Source: Citricoccus muralis (GTDB taxonomy: Bacteria; Actinomycetota; Actinomycetes; Actinomycetales; Micrococcaceae). From it: 64,000 bases of DNA. The translations under genes and the position numbers were made by a program. This document shows, piece by piece, positions 45,903 through 62,757 of the stretch. The notes under the pieces were generated by a model. That model was not told the DNA's origin, made no database searches, and worked only from the letters and a program-made list of their open reading frames with translations. The first letter of the stretch is position 1. The number at the start of each line of letters is the position of its first letter. The stretch spans positions 1,240,001-1,304,000 of the forward strand of contig NZ_CP121252.1 of the NCBI RefSeq assembly GCF_029637705.1. The letters run 5' to 3'.

Positions 45903-46703
45903 CTAGTCGCCGCTCCCTTCGTCGTCCGTGGGGTACTTGACGGAACCAATGAGCCCCTCAACCGAGATTGCGCTTGGATCTGGCGCGTCTTTTCCTTCGG
46001 CAAACTTATATCGTTCTGCAGATTTATAGGCCAGCCGGACAGCCTGTACAACGAGCACACGTCTGAGTCCGGCAGATACTTGCCCTCTTTCGAATGCTAC
46101 GGATGCAAGCCTTGAGATAGTCTCCGCGCGTCTCGCAATGCGAACGTCGGGATGTCCCCTCTCCTCTTTGGTGGCCTCCGAGATTAGCTTGAATCGATAA
46201 GACTCGGGCAGGTCTATCGGGGTCGAAGCGGGAGGGATTTTTTCATTTAAAATCGCGCCAAATTTACTATTTGAAATCGCTCTTAAGTAAGCTGAGTATT
46301 CGTACGCGTCCAGCTGGCGCGTGGCATCCGAAAAAGAGGTAGCGTCCACGTTCTTGCTGGGAGTGTACTCAAGGTGCCACAGGGGCCAAACCTCCATTTC
46401 GGCGACCTCGAAGACATCTAGTATTCGCATTGCGACAGCATCGGTTCTCTGGTTTGTTAGGTGACGATTTAGCCGTGTTGCTAGACTTTCCTTTGTCTGT
46501 CCCACGTAAATAGGCTCACCGTCATAGTCGTAGAATGCGTATACTCCCCATTTTGCGGAAGTTATCTTGCGACCCTCATTATCCTTTTGACTCTTTGCTT
46601 TGTCGAATAAAGATCTGAATTCTTGAACTATGGCAGCCGGAAGTTCTTTGGACTTTGGCTTGCTCTTCACTTCGTCAACACGTGCACGTCCGCTACTAGC
46701 CAT
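45903..46703 (-). CDS. GIY-YIG nuclease-domain protein, putative restriction partner
   Basis: 266 residues from ATG 46703, overlapping the end of the methyltransferase gene. The GIY-YIG core is KWGVYAFYDYDGEPIYVGQTKESLATRLNRHL (GVY 53-55, YVG 67-69, R77, H81), followed by a helix carrying a candidate metal-binding Glu (E135, LDAYEYSAYLRA) and an Asn (ILNEK). The R-x3-H spacing is like the Eco29kI branch of type II enzymes, but overall similarity to it is not obvious to me. The C-terminal part (about 160-266) is unrecognised. Position after a cytosine methyltransferase suggests the cognate endonuclease. Confidence 0.72.
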   Translation of the reverse strand: MASSGRARVDEVKSKPKSKELPAAIVQEFRSLFDKAKSQKDNEGRKITSAKWGVYAFYDYDGEPIYVGQTKESLATRLNRHLTNQRTDAVAMRILDVFEVAEMEVWPLWHLEYTPSKNVDATSFSDATRQLDAYEYSAYLRAISNSKFGAILNEKIPPASTPIDLPESYRFKLISEATKEERGHPDVRIARRAETISRLASVAFERGQVSAGLRRVLVVQAVRLAYKSAERYKFAEGKDAPDPSAISVEGLIGSVKYPTDDEGSGD

Positions 46704-47958
46704 TGAGCGCCTCGTCAACGGGGGCACCTAACGTAACCAAATCGCCCTTGACCAGTGGCATTAAGTAGTTTTCTGCGAGCCATGCTACGGCGGGGACAGC
46801 AACAGCATCACCGAACCCGAATAGCGCCTGGTTCGTGCGAGCGCTATCTAAGTTGTAGTCTCCTGCACCCATGAGGCGAGCATATTCCAAAGGGGTCATC
46901 CAACGGACTTGTAGCCTCTTGTTTCCAAGTCGAACGACCGCTTGCTTCGACGAACCACCTCGAGCCGTACGTAGGCAGCCGGAAACATCATCAGGGCGGA
47001 CCTCCCAGACGGCAGTGCCCTTGCGGGTCCTTCTATAGGCCGTACGATACTTCACTCCGGACGTGCGCCTGAGGCGCATCACGCGGTCTCGTTGTGTGGG
47101 GGACAGCGACCCGATGAAGGCGGTTGTGCGTGATTCGTCCCACCATCGCTCATCACTGAGGGGCATGTCTTCAATGAGTTCTCCCAGTCCTTCCGTCTTG
47201 GGCTTGGGGGGTGTGGGGAGCGCAGCTCTGTGAGTTCGGAGGCTCTTGTCGCCATATACCCATTGCAGCCAGTCTGGTCGGAGTTCTGAATTGGGATCCG
47301 GATTATCTGTTGGAGGATTCTGTGCGCCAACAAGAAACAGTCTTGGTCGAGACTGGGGTAGGAATCGTCGCGCGTCTAGTGCGAGCACATCAATGGAGTA
47401 TCCAAGTTGATTGAAGGCGCGGATTGCGGCAGTAAGGTCATCACCACCGTGTGATGATGCAAGTCCTGTCACGTTTTCGAGCACAACAACGTCTGGACGA
47501 TTCTTACCGAGATCTGTGAGCAGTTGTATAAAGTGCCAGAAGGTTCCGGATTGTGCTCCCGCGAATCCGGCACGTGCGCCAGCTAGTGAAAGATCGGTAC
47601 ATGGTGACGACGCCCAGGCTAAGGACGCATCTTTGGGGAGTTCGGAAACTTTCGTTCTCGCTATATCACCAAGAGAGAATGTGTGCTCGGGGTCTTCGGC
47701 GAACTGCGCCTCATACATTGCTTTCTTGTCGGCTTCAAAATCATTGGCCCACGCTACCCGGAACCCGGCACTCTCAAGACCCATGCGGGCGAGGCCGATT
47801 CCAGCAAAGAACTCGAGGACCCTTGGCCGCGCAACGTTGATTGATGTCACTTCTCCCATGGGGTCTACCGTATCAAGTGGAAATGTCGCGTTCTTGTCTT
47901 GACTCGCTGCTGATGTGCTAGAAGATCTTGCGTGGACGTCAACCTTTTTGAAAGTCAT
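46696..47958 (-). CDS. C5-cytosine DNA methyltransferase (Dcm-type)
   Basis: 420 residues. Motif I is VLEFFAGIGLARMGLESAGFRVAWANDFEADK; motif IV holds the catalytic C120 in ASSPCTDLSLAGARAG; motif VI is VVVLENVTGLAS; motif VIII is RRFLPQSRPRLFLVG. After a recognition region come motif IX-like and motif X segments (LQVRWMTPLEYARLMGAGDYNL; NQALFGFGDAVAVPAVAWLAENYL). The start may be ATG 47958 or MGEVTS, 33 codons later. It precedes and overlaps the GIY-YIG gene by 8 nt, an operon arrangement for restriction-modification. The target sequence cannot be deduced. Confidence 0.93.
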   Translation of the reverse strand: MTFKKVDVHARSSSTSAASQDKNATFPLDTVDPMGEVTSINVARPRVLEFFAGIGLARMGLESAGFRVAWANDFEADKKAMYEAQFAEDPEHTFSLGDIARTKVSELPKDASLAWASSPCTDLSLAGARAGFAGAQSGTFWHFIQLLTDLGKNRPDVVVLENVTGLASSHGGDDLTAAIRAFNQLGYSIDVLALDARRFLPQSRPRLFLVGAQNPPTDNPDPNSELRPDWLQWVYGDKSLRTHRAALPTPPKPKTEGLGELIEDMPLSDERWWDESRTTAFIGSLSPTQRDRVMRLRRTSGVKYRTAYRRTRKGTAVWEVRPDDVSGCLRTARGGSSKQAVVRLGNKRLQVRWMTPLEYARLMGAGDYNLDSARTNQALFGFGDAVAVPAVAWLAENYLMPLVKGDLVTLGAPVDEALNG

Positions 47959-48432: not shown

Positions 48433-50523
48433 ATGGAAAGCGCTAGCCACGATGCGCCATTTACGTTCAGCTGGCTCGCGCTCAAGTTGTTAGGGAGGGG
48501 CCTCTACTCAAATCCATGGAGCGCACTCTCAGAGCTCGTGGCTAACGGCCTCGACGCAGGGGCGCAGAACGTATACGTCTATGTCGACGCCAGAGACAAG
48601 TCAAAGGCAACCATAGAGGTCGTAGACGACGGAACCGGGATGAGTCGTGCTGACATACTGAACTATGTCAAGGTCGGGTTCAACAAGCGTGAACATGCCA
48701 TGGCGACGGGCGCTTCTAATGCAGGTGAGGTGAAGGGCCGAAAAGGAATAGGGAAGCTTGCAGCACTGTTTCTGTCGCGTCATTTCTACCTGCAAACAAA
48801 GCACAAAGATGATGGAAGTAACTGGGAACTGGATGCGCGCGATGGCAAAGTCAGCGATGAGGAGAATCCCAGTCTCAAGGCCACAGACGATGTGCCATGG
48901 ACAGCCAACGAAGAGTTGTGGAATCAGACGGCAACGGGCACTCGCCTTGTCATGCTCGACGTCGATCTTACTGGATACGGTCCTCAATCTATCAATGCTC
49001 TGGGGTCACGACTGGCTAATCAATTCTTGTTACCGGACAATGCGTCTCCGAGAATCCTGTTGTCAGTGAGATCTTCTGAGACCGAAACCAACTACAATTA
49101 TTCGCCGGTGAAAAAGAACGTAGCTTTCGGTAACTTGGCGGAGATTGCTCAATATTTCACATCCAACGACGTGCAGCCAGATGAGTTAGTTGGAGATCCC
49201 ACCGTGTTGAATGTACCTGCGAAAGAACTCCCCGGTGGTAACTACGAGCATATTCAATCACGTACCACGTTCCCGTTGGATCCTCCAGAAGATGAGTCCT
49301 GGGAAGAGATCGCCAAATTCGTGGACCGGTCTAACCAGACCTACCAGGGCGTCAAATACAGTCTGACTGGATGGATCGGCGTGCATGCCACTATCGACAA
49401 CAAGGGCGCGAAGGCGAATGACAATCGTTTCATTAAGAACAAGTACTACAACCCTGCACAGTTGAGGGTTTATGTGCGAGGAAAACTCGCAAGCGACCGC
49501 TTGCTTTCTCAATTAGGAATTACTGGAACGTACGCGAACTACATTGAGGGAGAGATTTCCTTCGATCTACTCGATGATGATTCCTTGCCAGATATAGCTA
49601 CATCCAACCGGCAGGATTTTGACGAAACAGACGGTCGCGTTACGTTGCTTCGGGCCTTGGTTCGGCCTATCGTGGGGAACCTGATTCAGCGTCGCACTGC
49701 GCTAGCTAAGCAAATTTCAGCTGCAGGTAAAGCTGAAAAAGAACGCCGGGATACTTCCGCGAAACATCAATTCTCGGATCAATTAAGGCGCGATCTGGAT
49801 CATCACTCCGATATCTCGAAAGGTATCCGTGATGAACTGCACATGACCATCACCGGTAAGGTTCAAGGCAACGTACCGGTCAAGCAAAACTTTCGAGTAT
49901 TCATTTCCCACGCGCGAGCAGACAAGGCGTTCGCGAGGTTCATCGACGATCTTCTTCGATCACGGGGTGTGAGAGCCGAGGAGGTATTTTTTACATCTCG
50001 GGCCGGAGCAGTCGACCTAGCCCTTGATGAACGTGCGTTGAGCACCGTGATTAAGGAGAACATCACAGACGCGAACACCCTGATCTTTTACATGACCAGC
50101 CGGCACTTCCTTGATAGCCAGTTCTGCTTGTTCGAAGGCGGCGCGGGGTGGGCGACGCGCGCTGTGAGTGAATACCTCAAGCTCAACATGGACTTCAATT
50201 CGATTCCGAAGTTCTTGACAGACGGAAGGTCGGAACAGTCCGTAATCGGCCCTGACGACAACATCGAGCTGAGGCCTGAACTGCATAACTACCTAGTGAA
50301 GGGGGTCTTGAACCCGATGATCGAGCATTTGAATCGTGGGCGAGAGATCGCAGGTGGGGTGCTAATTGAACCGTTCGAATTGCGGACTGCGCCTTCAGCC
50401 GTGGAGATGAGTCGCGAAGGCAAGACGGCAAAAGACTACTTCGATCAGTCTATTGTGGAGCACTGGGATGTGCTAATTAGTACTGAAATCAAAACGTACT
50501 TAACCGAATACCTGAAACAGTAG
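48433..50523 (+). CDS. GHKL/HSP90-type ATPase fused to a C-terminal TIR domain
   Basis: 696 residues. The N-terminus is a Bergerat-fold ATPase: N-box ELVANGLDAGA (E34, N38), G1 box DDGTGM (D65-M70) and G2 box GRKGIGK (102-108). A middle region without a family I know (about 200-470) includes a charged coiled stretch (QRRTALAKQISAAGKAEKERR). Residues about 486-640 form a TIR domain: FRVFISHARADKAFARFIDDLLRSRGVRAEEVFFTS, with the putative NADase Glu E568 in LDSQFCLFEGGAGWA. ATG 48433 has AAGGAG 5 nt upstream. TIR domains in bacterial defence cleave NAD+ or make signalling nucleotides; the ATPase is probably the sensor or switch. It sits beside a SIR2-like gene. The role in defence is inferred. 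Confidence 0.85.
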   Translation: MESASHDAPFTFSWLALKLLGRGLYSNPWSALSELVANGLDAGAQNVYVYVDARDKSKATIEVVDDGTGMSRADILNYVKVGFNKREHAMATGASNAGEVKGRKGIGKLAALFLSRHFYLQTKHKDDGSNWELDARDGKVSDEENPSLKATDDVPWTANEELWNQTATGTRLVMLDVDLTGYGPQSINALGSRLANQFLLPDNASPRILLSVRSSETETNYNYSPVKKNVAFGNLAEIAQYFTSNDVQPDELVGDPTVLNVPAKELPGGNYEHIQSRTTFPLDPPEDESWEEIAKFVDRSNQTYQGVKYSLTGWIGVHATIDNKGAKANDNRFIKNKYYNPAQLRVYVRGKLASDRLLSQLGITGTYANYIEGEISFDLLDDDSLPDIATSNRQDFDETDGRVTLLRALVRPIVGNLIQRRTALAKQISAAGKAEKERRDTSAKHQFSDQLRRDLDHHSDISKGIRDELHMTITGKVQGNVPVKQNFRVFISHARADKAFARFIDDLLRSRGVRAEEVFFTSRAGAVDLALDERALSTVIKENITDANTLIFYMTSRHFLDSQFCLFEGGAGWATRAVSEYLKLNMDFNSIPKFLTDGRSEQSVIGPDDNIELRPELHNYLVKGVLNPMIEHLNRGREIAGGVLIEPFELRTAPSAVEMSREGKTAKDYFDQSIVEHWDVLISTEIKTYLTEYLKQ

Positions 50524-51074
50524 GCTAAAATGAGGCGGCCAATGCCTGCTCGATTTTCAGGCCCGGATTTTTCGCCACGGACAGTGGTTGAGAATGGGTG
50601 TCGACTATTCGTGAGATCTTGTGCTTCTGGAATCGCCGACTAGAGTTTTCCAATCGCAGGATTAAGGATTCGTGAGCTGCTGTGTGCGCAAAGTGGGATC
50701 GTCGCAGACCCCTCTCCCGAGGAATTCCGCGAGTGGGCTAGATTGAACGACCATGCACTCGGTGATGAGTTAGGCAATATGTTTTTATTCTAGCCGCGGC
50801 ACTCAATAGCAATGAAAACTATAGATGTGAATTTTATTGTTGCACGATATGCGTATGTTCCGTTTACCTGCGAGGCGTACGCAGGTAAACGAGTTGGGCC
50901 GCTGACAACAGGGTGTCCAAGCGAAGTTCTCCTTTGCGGATTTTCCTCGTCGAGAAGACCTCGGCCAGACTGGATTGGCTCGCTCTTTTACGGGAGGGCA
51001 AGCTGGCGCGACATAAAGTTGGATGGTGGGTGCGTTTGAGCCTTTGCAATATTGAGATCGGGTATCATTCCAAC
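50524..51074. other. Gene-poor stretch with an inverted repeat
   Basis: About 550 nt without a convincing complete gene. An in-frame stretch at about 50640-50790 reads ...RIRELLCAQSGIVADPSPEEFREWARLNDHALGDELGNMF, ends in TAG, and lacks a start; it could be the remnant of a gene, or chance. At 50861-50891 lies a perfect 12-bp inverted repeat (CGTTTACCTGCG / CGCAGGTAAACG, 7-nt loop) without a T-run. The region is AT-richer than core DNA. Confidence 0.5.
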
Positions 51075-52130
51075 ATGGGTCAAAATGTTCTACTTTCGCA
51101 TGCGGAAGCTTATAGCTGGGTTGACGATAGTGGTGTAAAGGGAAAACCGCATTTGTTACTTGGGAACGGTTTTAGCGTCGCGTATGACAGGGAGCGTTTC
51201 TCATATAGTGCTCTTGTCGACCATGCTCGGGGTGCGGGGCGATTTAGTGTATTGGCTGATAGGTTCTTCCAAGCGCTGGCGACCTGTGATTTTGAAGTCG
51301 TGATTCAGCAGATGTCCACAGCGGCAATGGCCTTAGAAGTTTTGGACGCAGAGGGGCATGGGCGTGAAATCGAAGACCTGAGATGTGAAGCAGAGTCGCT
51401 TAAGGAACTACTGGCGTTATCGCTTGCATCGTTGCATCCAGAGCGACCTGCTCAAATAGAAGACGACTCGTATTTTCGCGTGAAGCGCTTTATTGAGGGC
51501 CACGCGAAAATTTATACGTCGAACTATGATTTACTTCTGTATTGGACACTCATGCAGAATGATGATGAATCAAGTTTCAAGGTAAGTGACGACGGTTTTC
51601 GGAGTCACGCTGATTCCGCAGAATACGTGGTTTGGAACCATCTGGATCCACATGCCCAGAACATCTTTTACTTGCATGGTGCCTTGCATCTGTATCGAGA
51701 TGTCGACAGTGCCGAACTGCACAAGCTAACTTGGGTACGCACTGATGTCCCGTTGATTGACCAAATACGGGCTCAGCTTCACAATAATCATTTTCCGCTA
51801 ATCGTGGCAGAAGGGACAAGTTCAGAGAAGCTCGCGAAAATTCAGATGAGCGACTACCTATCGAAAGGGTTAAGGTCGTTGGCGAACATCGGTGGGGGGC
51901 TTCTTGTGTTTGGCTTATCGTTCGGTGCGAATGACGATCACATCTCTCAGGCCTTGATCAAGTCCAAAGTGTCGCGTATCGCCGTTTCCTTGTTTGGGGA
52001 TCCGGAGGGGGAGGCGAACCGAAAGACAATTGATGCCGTGAATCGAATTGTGAGAGACCGCAAGGCTCAAAGAGCGAATAGGCCGTTGGAAGTGAAATTC
52101 TTTGATGCTTCTTCCGTTTCATTGTGGTGA
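51075..52130 (+). CDS. SIR2-like DUF4917 protein
   Basis: 351 residues from ATG 51075 (the frame is open back to 50913, but homologous sequence starts later). The family DUF4917 is recognisable: HLLLGNGFSVAYDRERFSYSAL (nucleotide-binding GNGFS, residues 30-34), KIYTSNYDLLLYWTL (TSNYD 148-152), NIFYLHGALHLY (LHG 200-202), LIVAEGTSSEKLAKIQMSDYLSK and LLVFGLSFGANDDHI (280-290). These are the SIR2-type Rossmann landmarks. Bacterial SIR2-like proteins often deplete NAD+ after phage sensing. It follows the HSP90-TIR gene by about 550 nt on the same strand. Whether it is an active NADase is not known. Confidence 0.85.
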   Translation: MGQNVLLSHAEAYSWVDDSGVKGKPHLLLGNGFSVAYDRERFSYSALVDHARGAGRFSVLADRFFQALATCDFEVVIQQMSTAAMALEVLDAEGHGREIEDLRCEAESLKELLALSLASLHPERPAQIEDDSYFRVKRFIEGHAKIYTSNYDLLLYWTLMQNDDESSFKVSDDGFRSHADSAEYVVWNHLDPHAQNIFYLHGALHLYRDVDSAELHKLTWVRTDVPLIDQIRAQLHNNHFPLIVAEGTSSEKLAKIQMSDYLSKGLRSLANIGGGLLVFGLSFGANDDHISQALIKSKVSRIAVSLFGDPEGEANRKTIDAVNRIVRDRKAQRANRPLEVKFFDASSVSLW

Positions 52131-59590: not shown

Positions 59591-61062
59591 TGCCTCATCG
59601 TCAAGTCCCCGGGAAATGATTCCTCGTGCCTCATGGAAAAGTCCCCGCGAAACGGTGTTGTGGTTAGGCGCTACGGGCTCGGCGTTGATCGATCTTGATC
59701 CATTCCGCGTCGGGCATGGCCGCAGCGGCCGCGTATTCCAGTTCGCGTTCTAGCCGTCGGGTGGGTTCTTTCGCGTTCTCGATCAATCGGTGCTGGATCG
59801 AGGTGATCTTACGAGCGATCTCAACGACGTTTAGTGAGGCTTTATACGCGGCGAGCTCGGCTTCTTGGGCCGGGCTAAGCACTCCAGCGGCTAAGAGCCG
59901 GTGATACGGCGATAAGGGCTTGTCGTAGACCCGTTTCCGGCGGCCAACCGCATCAGTGGTGTATCCGATGGGTTTCTTCGTGGGGGTGTAGTAATTCAGC
60001 CGGTCACACACCAATGGCCATAACTGATTCAACAGCTCACGTTGATGAGGGGTGTCGTACCGGTAGTAGAACCCGTACCGGCGCACGAGATGGTTGTTCT
60101 TCGACTCGATCGTGGCTTGATCATTCTTCTGATAAGGCCGTGAACGGGTATAGAAAATCTTCTTCTGAGCGCTCCATCCCAGCACTTCATGGTTGATGAA
60201 CTCGCTACCGTTATCGGAATCGATGCCTGTGACCATGAACGGGACTGCTTCGAGGAACTTCTCGAAAGCAGAGACGATGTGGGTCTGGGAATTATTCCTG
60301 ATCGCGGTGGTGAACACCCACCCGGTGTACATGTCAGTGAAATTCACCGTACGAGCGAACTCGCCCTTCAGGGTAGGCCCGCAATGAGCGACGGTATCGA
60401 CTTCGAAGAATCCTGGTTCAGCTTCGATCTCGTCACCGGCTTTACGCACACTGATCGAGTTTCGTAACAGTGCCCCGGGCTTCGTGGCGGATTTACCTCG
60501 AATCGGGTCTTGATCCCGCAGAGGTTTCAGATGCCGGTCAATGGTCGCGGCTGAAATAGTGAGCAGTTCATCACGGACGTGCTGGCTGTATCGGTCCTGG
60601 CCATAGACGAGATCACCGGTGGCTTCCATAGCGTCTAACCAATCAACCATCGACGCTGCGAGGTATTTGCCGCAGATACCGCCAGCAACAGCCCACACGC
60701 GTTGCAAGATTTTCAGGCAGTCATAGGAATACTTACTGCCCGGGTTCTTCCGTCGATCGATGACCGCAACGGTAGCGGTGGCTCGTCCTGGTGGTTGGCG
60801 AAGACGCCGGCGTAGTTGTTGACGGGCGTGGTCTCGGTTCCAGCCAGTGATTTCCACGACCTTATCGAGGATCCGTGATTTGTCCTTTTTGCTGGCTGCT
60901 TCATACGCTTCGGCGTATTTCTTCGTGATCTCGACTCTGGTCGCCAACGAGACATCCTTATCGGGCATACCCCATCGTTGCCGATACCTGGACCCGGAGG
61001 ATTTGCCGGGGACTTTTTTATGAGGCACGGCCCCTTGCTACGCGGGGACTTTCCATGAGTCT
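59591..61062. mobile_element. Insertion sequence between smpB and ssrA
   Basis: A transposase on the minus strand with characteristic ends. The repeat TGCCTCAT-N4-AAGTCCCCG appears twice at the left end (59591-59613 and 59627-59649). At the right end, in inverted orientation, it appears at 61004-61026 and as a degenerate copy at 61041-61062. Two tandem terminal repeats per end mark the element's borders. I could not see a clear target duplication. Confidence 0.8.
59664..61028 (-). CDS. DDE transposase with integrase core
   Basis: 454 residues. An N-terminal helix-turn-helix region (DKSRILDKVVEITGWNRDHARQQLRRRL) is followed by an rve-type DDE core: FFEVDTVAHCGPTLKGEFARTVNFTD (first D), GIDSDNGSEFINHE (second D), and NDQATIESKNNHLVRRYGFYYRYDT (E). 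A C-terminal region ends with QLLRRLERE-like helices (PTRRLERELEYAAAAAMPDAEW). The frame is intact. The IS family cannot be named securely from sequence alone; the tandem terminal repeats and length suggest the IS1202/ISNCY-like group. The right terminal repeat at 61004-61026 overlaps the first codons. Confidence 0.88.
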   Translation of the reverse strand: MPHKKVPGKSSGSRYRQRWGMPDKDVSLATRVEITKKYAEAYEAASKKDKSRILDKVVEITGWNRDHARQQLRRRLRQPPGRATATVAVIDRRKNPGSKYSYDCLKILQRVWAVAGGICGKYLAASMVDWLDAMEATGDLVYGQDRYSQHVRDELLTISAATIDRHLKPLRDQDPIRGKSATKPGALLRNSISVRKAGDEIEAEPGFFEVDTVAHCGPTLKGEFARTVNFTDMYTGWVFTTAIRNNSQTHIVSAFEKFLEAVPFMVTGIDSDNGSEFINHEVLGWSAQKKIFYTRSRPYQKNDQATIESKNNHLVRRYGFYYRYDTPHQRELLNQLWPLVCDRLNYYTPTKKPIGYTTDAVGRRKRVYDKPLSPYHRLLAAGVLSPAQEAELAAYKASLNVVEIARKITSIQHRLIENAKEPTRRLERELEYAAAAAMPDAEWIKIDQRRARSA

Positions 61063-61147: not shown

Positions 61148-61515
61148 GGGGATGATCGGTTTCGACGATGTGAGTTGCCGCAGGAGAAGCGGGCCGAGAA
61201 TGTAGAGTCATCTCGTAAACGTCCTCTGCAAACTAATAAGTGCCGAATCTAAGCGCACTGACTTCGCTCTCGCTGCCTGATACAGCGAACGAGTCCGTCA
61301 GCCCGGGATTGCTGTCGTCCCGGAACCTGGCGTCGATTAGATAGCCACTGTCTATTGCCCTTGCCGGGGGAAGCAATAGAGACCTAAATCCGGATAGGCC
61401 TGGACTGGCTGCTTGTCTGCATGACAGCCAAGGCCGAAAAACTCCGACGCAGACTGCGCCCGGAGAAGTCCTGCTAAAGCCACATCGGACGGGGGTTCGA
61501 TTCCCCCCATCTCCA
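61148..61515 (+). ncRNA. ssrA: Transfer-messenger RNA (tmRNA)
   Basis: The 5' end GGGGATG pairs with CATCTCC at 61508-61514 to form the acceptor stem, and GGGGGTTCGATTCCCCC makes the T arm; CCA is not encoded. The tag ORF at 61242-61280 reads AESKRTDFALAA and ends TGA, the Micrococcaceae-type degradation tag. A -10-like GATAAC lies 7 nt before the 5' end. It works with SmpB to rescue stalled ribosomes. Its native terminator has been displaced to 62947 by an IS481-type element inserted at the very 3' end. Confidence 0.96.
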
Positions 61516-61518
61516 CGG
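61504..61518 (+). repeat. 15-bp target site duplication, left copy (tmRNA 3' end)
   Basis: CCCCCATCTCCACGG, covering the T-arm/acceptor end of tmRNA, is repeated exactly at 62929-62943. The two copies flank the IS481-family element. Confidence 0.88.
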
Positions 61519-61575: not shown

Positions 61576-62757
61576 TCACTTACTCAGGCGTTTGGTGGGT
61601 TTCTGATAGTTCTTTGAGACGTCTATTTCGAAGTATCTGAGGATCTCGCCAGTTTTTCGGTGAATGACGGTGATCTCGCGGTCATCGACCATCATTCGTA
61701 CCGGGATGCCTGAGTAAGTGGCCCCCATTCCTAAGTGACGGAGCTTTCCGTCGTAGCGGATAGTGAGCTTGCCGAACTTGTCCACGGTGTCGTTTCTGAT
61801 TCGGTAGTCCTCTTGAGGTTGTGGCACCGGTGTTGCTTTCGGCAGAGCCGAATAGACGCTGGCCGGAGTTTTTCGCTTGATCGCTCGATGCGGTCTGTCA
61901 TGGTTGTAGATCTGCTGAAACTGAGTGAGTTGTTTGTTGAGTGTTTGTACCGATCTGGCCCTGGGTTGAGCTCGTAGCCACTGCTTGAGGGTCCGGTGGA
62001 AGCGTTCGATCTTTCCCTGCGTTTGCGGGTGGTTCGGGGACCCATTGATCTGCTGAACGTCCCACCGATGCAGGAGCTTTTCGAATTGGTTCTTTGCGGG
62101 GTCTTCGTTGCCAGCGCGTCCTGCGAACCGAGTTGTGAAGACCAAGCCGTTGTCGGTGAGTGATTTCTGAGGGCGTCCGTGTTCTTCGCAAGCAGCGCTG
62201 AATTGCTCGACGACGTTGCGCACTGTCACGCGGCGGTAAGCGCGCAGGCTGATGAGGAATCGTGAGTGATCGTCGATGAAGTCCAGTACCTCGGCGTCTG
62301 TTCCATCGGCGAGTGTCCAATGGGTGAAATCGGCTTGCCACATCTCGTTGGGTAGAACGGCGACAAACCGATTCAATGAGGAATTAGGACGTTTCTGCGG
62401 TTGATCGATCACAGTGTTGGCTTGGCGCAGAATTCGATGCACGGTCGATCGTGACGGCACCAGAATGCCTTCGTTTTCTAAGTAGGCGCGAATGGAATCT
62501 GCGCCAGCGTCTAAGCCAGTGCTGACGAGATCGCTCCGTAGCTGCAGGATACGGTCCCGGGTCTCGGGAGGGGTTTGGTTTGGTGATGTCAGCGGTCGCT
62601 TTGACCGAGATTCGAAAGCGTTGTCTCCTTCTTGGAGGTAGCGGCGGACCAGAGCTTGTACCCATCGTTCAGTCACATTGAAGTGCGCTGCGGTTGCCTT
62701 GGTGGACATGGACCCTTGCGTGACGGCCAGGATGATGGCCTTATTTTTTATTTTCAC
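61576..62757 (-). CDS. IS481-family transposase
   Basis: 393 residues. The N-terminal HTH (KAIILAVTQGSMSTKATAAHFNVTERWVQALVRRY) is followed by an rve core: EMWQADFTHWTLADGTDAEVLDFIDDHSRF (first D), QKSLTDNGLVFTTRF (second D) and NHPQTQGKIERFHRTLKQWL (E), as in IS481. The tail RPHRAIKRKTPASVY is also typical. No frameshift is seen, so the element may be active. Confidence 0.93.
   Translation of the reverse strand: MKIKNKAIILAVTQGSMSTKATAAHFNVTERWVQALVRRYLQEGDNAFESRSKRPLTSPNQTPPETRDRILQLRSDLVSTGLDAGADSIRAYLENEGILVPSRSTVHRILRQANTVIDQPQKRPNSSLNRFVAVLPNEMWQADFTHWTLADGTDAEVLDFIDDHSRFLISLRAYRRVTVRNVVEQFSAACEEHGRPQKSLTDNGLVFTTRFAGRAGNEDPAKNQFEKLLHRWDVQQINGSPNHPQTQGKIERFHRTLKQWLRAQPRARSVQTLNKQLTQFQQIYNHDRPHRAIKRKTPASVYSALPKATPVPQPQEDYRIRNDTVDKFGKLTIRYDGKLRHLGMGATYSGIPVRMMVDDREITVIHRKTGEILRYFEIDVSKNYQKPTKRLSK

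Follow-up and report, generated by a model that had tools for sequence, protein, structure and literature searches.

A GHKL-S5-TIR protein of Citricoccus muralis linked to a C5 DNA methyltransferase: a candidate methylation-licensed, restriction-like module with a TIR effector

We describe a candidate defence module in a 64,000-nt stretch of the Citricoccus muralis genome, hereafter the window (NCBI RefSeq assembly GCF_029637705.1, contig NZ_CP121252.1, positions 1,240,001 to 1,304,000 of the forward strand), centred on a gene for a 696-residue protein that combines a GHKL ATPase domain, a predicted S5-type transducer region and a C-terminal TIR domain (GHKL-TIR hereafter). We suggest, at a probability of about 50%, that GHKL-TIR and the C5 DNA methyltransferase (MTase) encoded beside it constitute a methylation-licensed, restriction-like module, probably armed with an NAD+-cleaving (NADase) activity, in which the nuclease has been replaced by TIR. 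The domain make-up, the predicted GHKL-S5 fold, the SpbK-type catalytic Glu, the linkage to the MTase and the independence from a neighbouring DUF4917 gene were all computed in this work (Table 1).

The GHKL-TIR gene opens with an ATG preceded by AAGGAG, a likely ribosome-binding site. All GHKL boxes are present in its product (E34/N38; DDGTGM at 65-70, with the pattern D65xG67xG69; GRKGIGK at 102-108; GT at 169-170), and in an alignment of 38 rows these positions are nearly all invariant, as is R393 of the S5 region (38/38 rows). The BbrUII/HgiDII restriction-enzyme model (NF050001) matches the protein with 170 bits (E=6e-50), best over residues 15-199. At the C-terminus, Pfam TIR_2 reaches 3e-5 and 24.9 bits, short of its cut-off of 28; the PADLOC spbK model matches at 1e-14, and a three-row profile retrieves the solved SpbK structure (9phb, E=3.7e-10). 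The motif CLFE568GGAGW573 is aligned on CLNE192MGATW197 of SpbK, so that E568, G570 and W573 correspond to E192, G194 and W197. In SpbK, E192 is among the NAD+-contacting residues that have been mutated, while G194R and W197A each abolish NADase activity and defence (PMC12847820). Judging from these matches, the TIR domain is genuine despite its sub-cut-off Pfam score, and the gene is a real defence-type gene. This agrees with the initial annotation, made from the sequence without database searches, which had recognised the GHKL boxes and a C-terminal TIR keeping a putative catalytic E568.

An AlphaFold2 model built from the 38 alignment rows has a mean predicted local distance difference test score (pLDDT) of 68, compared with 45 for an earlier three-row prediction, and scores ~80-90 across much of GHKL and S5. 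Residues 11-430 of the model align with MORC3 (Z 20.1), Hsp90 (19.1), MORC4 (18.6), DNA-bound MORC2 (17.1) and MutL (16.3). The region of residues 200-470, singled out earlier for structure prediction, is therefore modelled over residues ~200-430 as an S5-type transducer of the MORC/MutL/Hsp90 kind. The former designation of the ATPase as HSP90-type holds at the level of the superfamily; by sequence the closest group is that of the BbrUII-type enzymes, and by fold the best match is MORC3. The fold-match lists are dominated by GHKL-S5 matches and so provide no test of the TIR domain.

Among 395 sampled genomes of the same family as the window genome, one other full-length GHKL-TIR was found, in Glutamicibacter uratoxydans (G245; loci L020/L069), and a scan of genome contigs, which used two peptide patterns only and hence under-samples GHKL-TIR genes, added a homologue in an Actinomycetaceae metagenome-assembled genome (MAG; L068). 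A C5 MTase of one family, here called MTase-X, adjoins the gene in 3/3 of these loci, the orientation being divergent in the window, co-directional in L020 and convergent in L068. The MTases of the two homologous loci are 47-52% identical to that of the window, compared with ~20% for the MTases of other GHKL loci. MTase-X occurs in 4/395 genomes and GHKL-TIR in 2/395, both within those 4 (Fisher 8e-5). The L068 locus is minimal, with GHKL-TIR, the MTase and no nuclease gene recognised beside them, and the GIY-YIG nuclease gene that accompanies the MTase in the window is found nowhere in the genomes carrying the two homologues, which indicates that GHKL-TIR fills the restriction slot there. We conclude that the conserved partner of GHKL-TIR is the C5 MTase, which had previously been treated as background, and not DUF4917.

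A more divergent GHKL-TIR gene (L058) belongs to a DISARM-type locus that also encodes DrmA, DrmB, a Vsr endonuclease and a C5 MTase; a TIR protein may thus be an abortive arm of some DISARM loci. Scans of viral contigs with the protein, the full-length alignment and the TIR alignment did not find GHKL-TIR; phage records gave a single match, GHKL-only, to a phage paraMORC3, and among plasmids the hits were relatives with GHKL only and one match with TIR only. The surroundings of the Glutamicibacter GHKL-TIR locus also hold a ThsB-type TIR gene and, after it, a gene for a SLATT-domain membrane protein (SLATT_3 + SLATT_1; L020 7337-8806), a pair that resembles Thoeris without ThsA.

Table 1. Features of the window and of the divergent DISARM-type locus, with the evidence for each
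Feature	Position	Strand	Evidence or content
GHKL-S5-TIR protein (696 aa)	48433..50523	+	Domain matches; full-length homologues L068 (63% identity) and L020/L069 (46%)
GHKL ATPase domain, ~residues 10-180	48460..48972	+	Pfam HATPase_c_3, E=2e-22
S5-type transducer region (predicted), ~residues 200-430	49030..49722	+	Alignment and predicted structure
TIR domain, ~residues 486-640	49888..50352	+	PADLOC spbK; profile match to SpbK
Putative catalytic Glu568 codon	50134-50136	+	Alignment to SpbK E192
C5 DNA methyltransferase (MTase-X family)	46696..47958	-	Pfam DNA_methylase, 2e-41; divergent from GHKL-TIR gene
GIY-YIG restriction nuclease	45903..46727	-	Pfam GIY-YIG, 8e-7; overlaps and pairs with MTase
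DUF4917 (PADLOC PDC-S21) protein, intact	51075..52130	+	Pfam 2.4e-69; PADLOC 1e-102
Gap between GHKL-TIR and DUF4917, 551 nt	50524..51074	.	Promoter/terminator scan
Divergent GHKL-TIR DISARM-type locus	L058 435-2321; L232 10011-11093 (G453:C38)		DrmA, DrmB, PLD-like protein, Vsr, mREase-type gene, C5 MTase

The nearest relatives without TIR are GHKL-S5 proteins that end in a Shedu-like PD-(D/E)xK nuclease, and three of those tested (L024, L103 and L094) exceed the BbrUII/HgiDII cut-off of 550 bits with 751-830 bits. When the GHKL-S5 alignment was used to fetch loci from viral contigs, 80 were obtained, 79 of them with a readable GHKL open reading frame, and a C5 MTase lies within 2 kb in 76/79 (43/45 after clustering of the full-length proteins at 80% identity). 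As a control, DUF4917 loci of the same viral collection, retrieved with 5-kb flanks, have a C5 MTase in 1/22 cases. A third type of effector is found beside C5 MTases in GHKL proteins with a Ymh (HEPN) or similar C-terminus (L022, L023, L062 and L088). By sequence, the whole set reads as one DNA-sensing chassis with swappable effectors beside a methylase, the window protein being its TIR version. Viral contigs abound in GHKL-Shedu restriction enzymes accompanied by an upstream or convergent C5 MTase (e.g. L103, 3968-5926 and 5967-7118; L152-L231), and phage PhiR44_1 carries such a pair, annotated ParaMORC3 and Dcm, between its structural and replication genes. In another viral contig (L199 4935-6836), a GHKL protein with a C-terminus of a different kind, giving no nuclease or TIR match, is overlapped by a C5 MTase and matches PADLOC PDLC03485, a type II restriction enzyme model, over its full length.

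The architecture, which the initial annotation could not match to a named system, had in fact been described computationally: proteins with GHKL, S5 and TIR in restriction-modification (RM) neighbourhoods were termed paraMORC4, and their TIR was guessed to be a nuclease or a ligand-binding/allosteric domain (Iyer, Abhiman and Aravind 2008, PMC2292703). The window protein shares with them intact GHKL motifs, a C-terminal TIR, the RM neighbourhood and, according to the model, S5 after GHKL. The Hx[ST]xD motif of the first TIR loop is matched by HSSRD of L020 and departed from in the window (HARAD) and L068 (HARTD); the window protein is for this reason called paraMORC4-like rather than a strict member. 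In contrast to the 2008 view, its aligned residues suggest an NADase site of the SpbK type, and the link to the MTase-X family and to BbrUII-type enzymes is likewise an addition to that description.

With the BbrUII/HgiDII enzymes the system shares the GHKL-S5 module, the adjacent C5 MTase and the two-gene layout; it differs in having TIR in place of the C-terminal PD-(D/E)xK nuclease, in scoring 170 bits where the model requires 550 and in an MTase of another family. M.HgiDII is known to methylate GTCGAC (PMC5867850). The principle of a GHKL sensor controlling a C-terminal effector is similar to that in VcSduA, a paraMORC3 protein (GHKL + DUF4263 Shedu nuclease) with demonstrated antiphage activity that needs both ATPase and nuclease, although there the effector, a DNA nuclease, seems to attack the phage itself and to leave the host alive (PMC12137116). 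The paraMORC-Ymh(HEPN) proteins (PMC3710099), also encoded near RM genes, join the GHKL module to an effector predicted to damage the cell, with a HEPN RNase where the window protein has TIR. SpbK, owner of the closest solved TIR, has an N-terminal portal-binding domain and no ATPase domain, whereas the window protein has GHKL-S5 at that place. Thoeris also defends by way of TIR; the window protein would be a sensor and TIR in a single chain, and no ThsA (SIR2 + SLOG-type) accompanies it, as the neighbouring protein matches DUF4917 only, with SIR2_2 below threshold and no SLOG match. Our search of the open-access literature turned up no experiments on a GHKL-TIR protein; papers beyond that literature may exist.

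Textbooks present restriction-modification as the direct cutting of DNA, and TIR systems as a cause of abortive infection, set off by phage proteins or nucleotide signals. For GHKL-TIR we infer DNA sensing, methylation gating, NADase activity and a role in phage defence, and we tentatively propose, at slightly worse than even odds, that it is the restriction subunit of an RM system and, in place of cutting DNA, destroys NAD+ (or makes an NAD-derived signal) on unmethylated DNA, that the effector slot is interchangeable and that the methylase of the window serves both a GIY-YIG and a TIR arm. The MTase would methylate the host copies of a DNA site, and a dimeric GHKL-S5 clamp, as in BbrUII/HgiDII enzymes, MutL and MORC, would inspect DNA. 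On unmethylated foreign DNA, closure or loading of the clamp, driven by the binding or hydrolysis of ATP, might bring the TIR domains together; SpbK TIRs are activated by being brought together (PMC12847820). The assembled TIRs would then cleave NAD+ or make an NAD-derived signal, arresting growth ahead of phage maturation. Within the window, the methylation mark would in addition guard against the GIY-YIG nuclease, one methylase thus supporting a cutting and an abortive arm. If this is true, DNA methylation can be the self-mark that licenses a suicidal NADase, the function of the TIR-bearing paraMORC proteins of the 2008 prediction is explained, and the GHKL-S5 clamp is a reusable sensor of self and non-self DNA with swappable effectors, which bears on the eukaryotic MORC relatives.

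The window MTase is closest to MTases that have a GIY-YIG partner and no GHKL-TIR (L129, 79%; L096, 73%; also L075), which indicates that the MTase/GIY-YIG pair is self-sufficient. Between the window MTase and those partnered with TIR proteins, identity in the target-recognition region (47-49%) is close to that in the catalytic core (47-55%), in keeping with a shared DNA site; one mark could then protect against both arms. A comparable row of MTase-X, GIY-YIG nuclease and GHKL-Shedu nuclease genes stands in L024 (5401-9827), apparently one methylase with two nuclease arms.

Several observations weigh against a restriction-like module with a TIR arm. The set is small, with three close and one divergent GHKL-TIR genes, one of them in a MAG. 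The TIR of the window scores below the Pfam threshold and is poorly modelled, with pLDDT of ~30-60 around the active site, so that statements about it rest on sequence. No DNA-binding or methyl-reading residue was identified in the GHKL-TIR protein. Further to that, the MTase tree places the window MTase with the GIY-YIG-partnered ones (87/99), apart from those of L068 and L020, whereas the GHKL tree joins the window with L068 (98/98) and unites window, L068 and L020 (100/100). This disagreement indicates different recent histories of the two window genes, and GHKL-TIR and the MTase lineage appear to have come together in the window separately from the L068 pair.

The main rival to a restriction arm is a PrrC-like guard, a backup akin to PrrC, RloC and paraMORC-HEPN, in which GHKL-TIR would watch the RM system and trigger NAD+ loss once it is put out of action by a phage inhibitor. 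For GHKL-HEPN(Ymh) proteins of RM neighbourhoods, a role analogous to that of PrrC/RloC has been proposed (PMC3710099), the window gene adjoins an intact RM pair, and in another genome (G327) the same MTase/GIY-YIG pair is followed by a GHKL-nuclease protein. However, L020 and L068 have the MTase and, genome-wide, no GIY-YIG nuclease, which leaves no such pair to guard, and the nearest GHKL relatives are assigned, in their own right, to restriction enzymes; we regard a guard as unlikely. It also seems improbable that TIR acts on DNA, or serves as a nucleotide-binding or assembly domain, with DNA being restricted directly and no loss of NAD+. A nuclease or allosteric role was suggested for paraMORC4 TIRs (Iyer et al. 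2008, PMC2292703) and domains of DNA-nuclease type fill the same slot in most relatives, but the closest solved TIR is that of a proven NADase, whose catalytic Glu is retained here together with the nearby Gly and Trp.

SpbK itself senses the phage portal protein (PMC12847820), and GHKL-TIR could likewise be a stand-alone sensor of a phage protein, its MTase neighbour reflecting the clustering of genes in defence islands. The discordant trees would suit such a sensor, to which we nevertheless give little chance: one MTase family is present in 3/3 loci in three orientations and C5 MTases recur across the GHKL clade, whereas DUF4917, which is equally island-borne, has one at 1/22 loci. The model of the initial annotation, in which GHKL-TIR and DUF4917 are the two arms of a single NAD+-targeting system, we consider highly improbable. 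The two genes do share a strand and an A+T-richer island, with 551 nt between them, but neither close homologue has a DUF4917 gene anywhere in its genome, and DUF4917 is rejected as a partner; elsewhere it occurs without GHKL-TIR, beside type I RM or toxin-antitoxin genes on plasmids, and in many viral contigs. A GHKL-TIR gene stands near DUF4917 in 0/25 loci from plasmids and viral contigs. The missing linkage dissolves the gene pair only; what is retained of the NAD+-targeting module is a TIR-armed, ATP-gated, probably NAD+-targeting defence protein.

The DUF4917 protein of the window is a candidate neighbouring, stand-alone defence gene product. It matches PDC-S21 over its full length (341.7 bits, residues 15-352), and the SIR2-like character ascribed to it has little sequence support, with SIR2_2 at 0.0037 and under the cut-off. 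Its program-called open reading frame opens at GTG 50913; homology sets the start at ATG 51075, which fixes the gap to GHKL-TIR, put earlier at about 550 nt, and promoter and terminator scans of this gap returned nothing convincing. DUF4917 (PDC-S21) genes are present in at least 22 viral contigs (L107-L128), which fits a phage-carried stand-alone defence gene.

The MTase and GIY-YIG genes form an RM pair, as had been recognised, and it is of type II: the C5 MTase gene, whose true start is possibly nearer 47859, overlaps the nuclease gene, and the pair recurs in L075, L024, L096, L097, L098 and L129. The island has a G+C content of 50-54%, compared with 58-63% around it, in line with the A+T-richness noted before. 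As to an insertion footprint, relatives show no synteny for the stretch upstream of prfB, and a search for flanking repeats gave none that was convincing. A second GHKL protein (770-aa open frame) is encoded in the same genome directly 3' of another C5 MTase (L002, G000:C1:62454-65789). The second A+T-richer stretch of the window holds a transfer-messenger RNA gene (61148-61516, tag AESKRTDFALAA) between integrase-type transposase genes (59664-61028 and 61576-62757) on the opposite strand.

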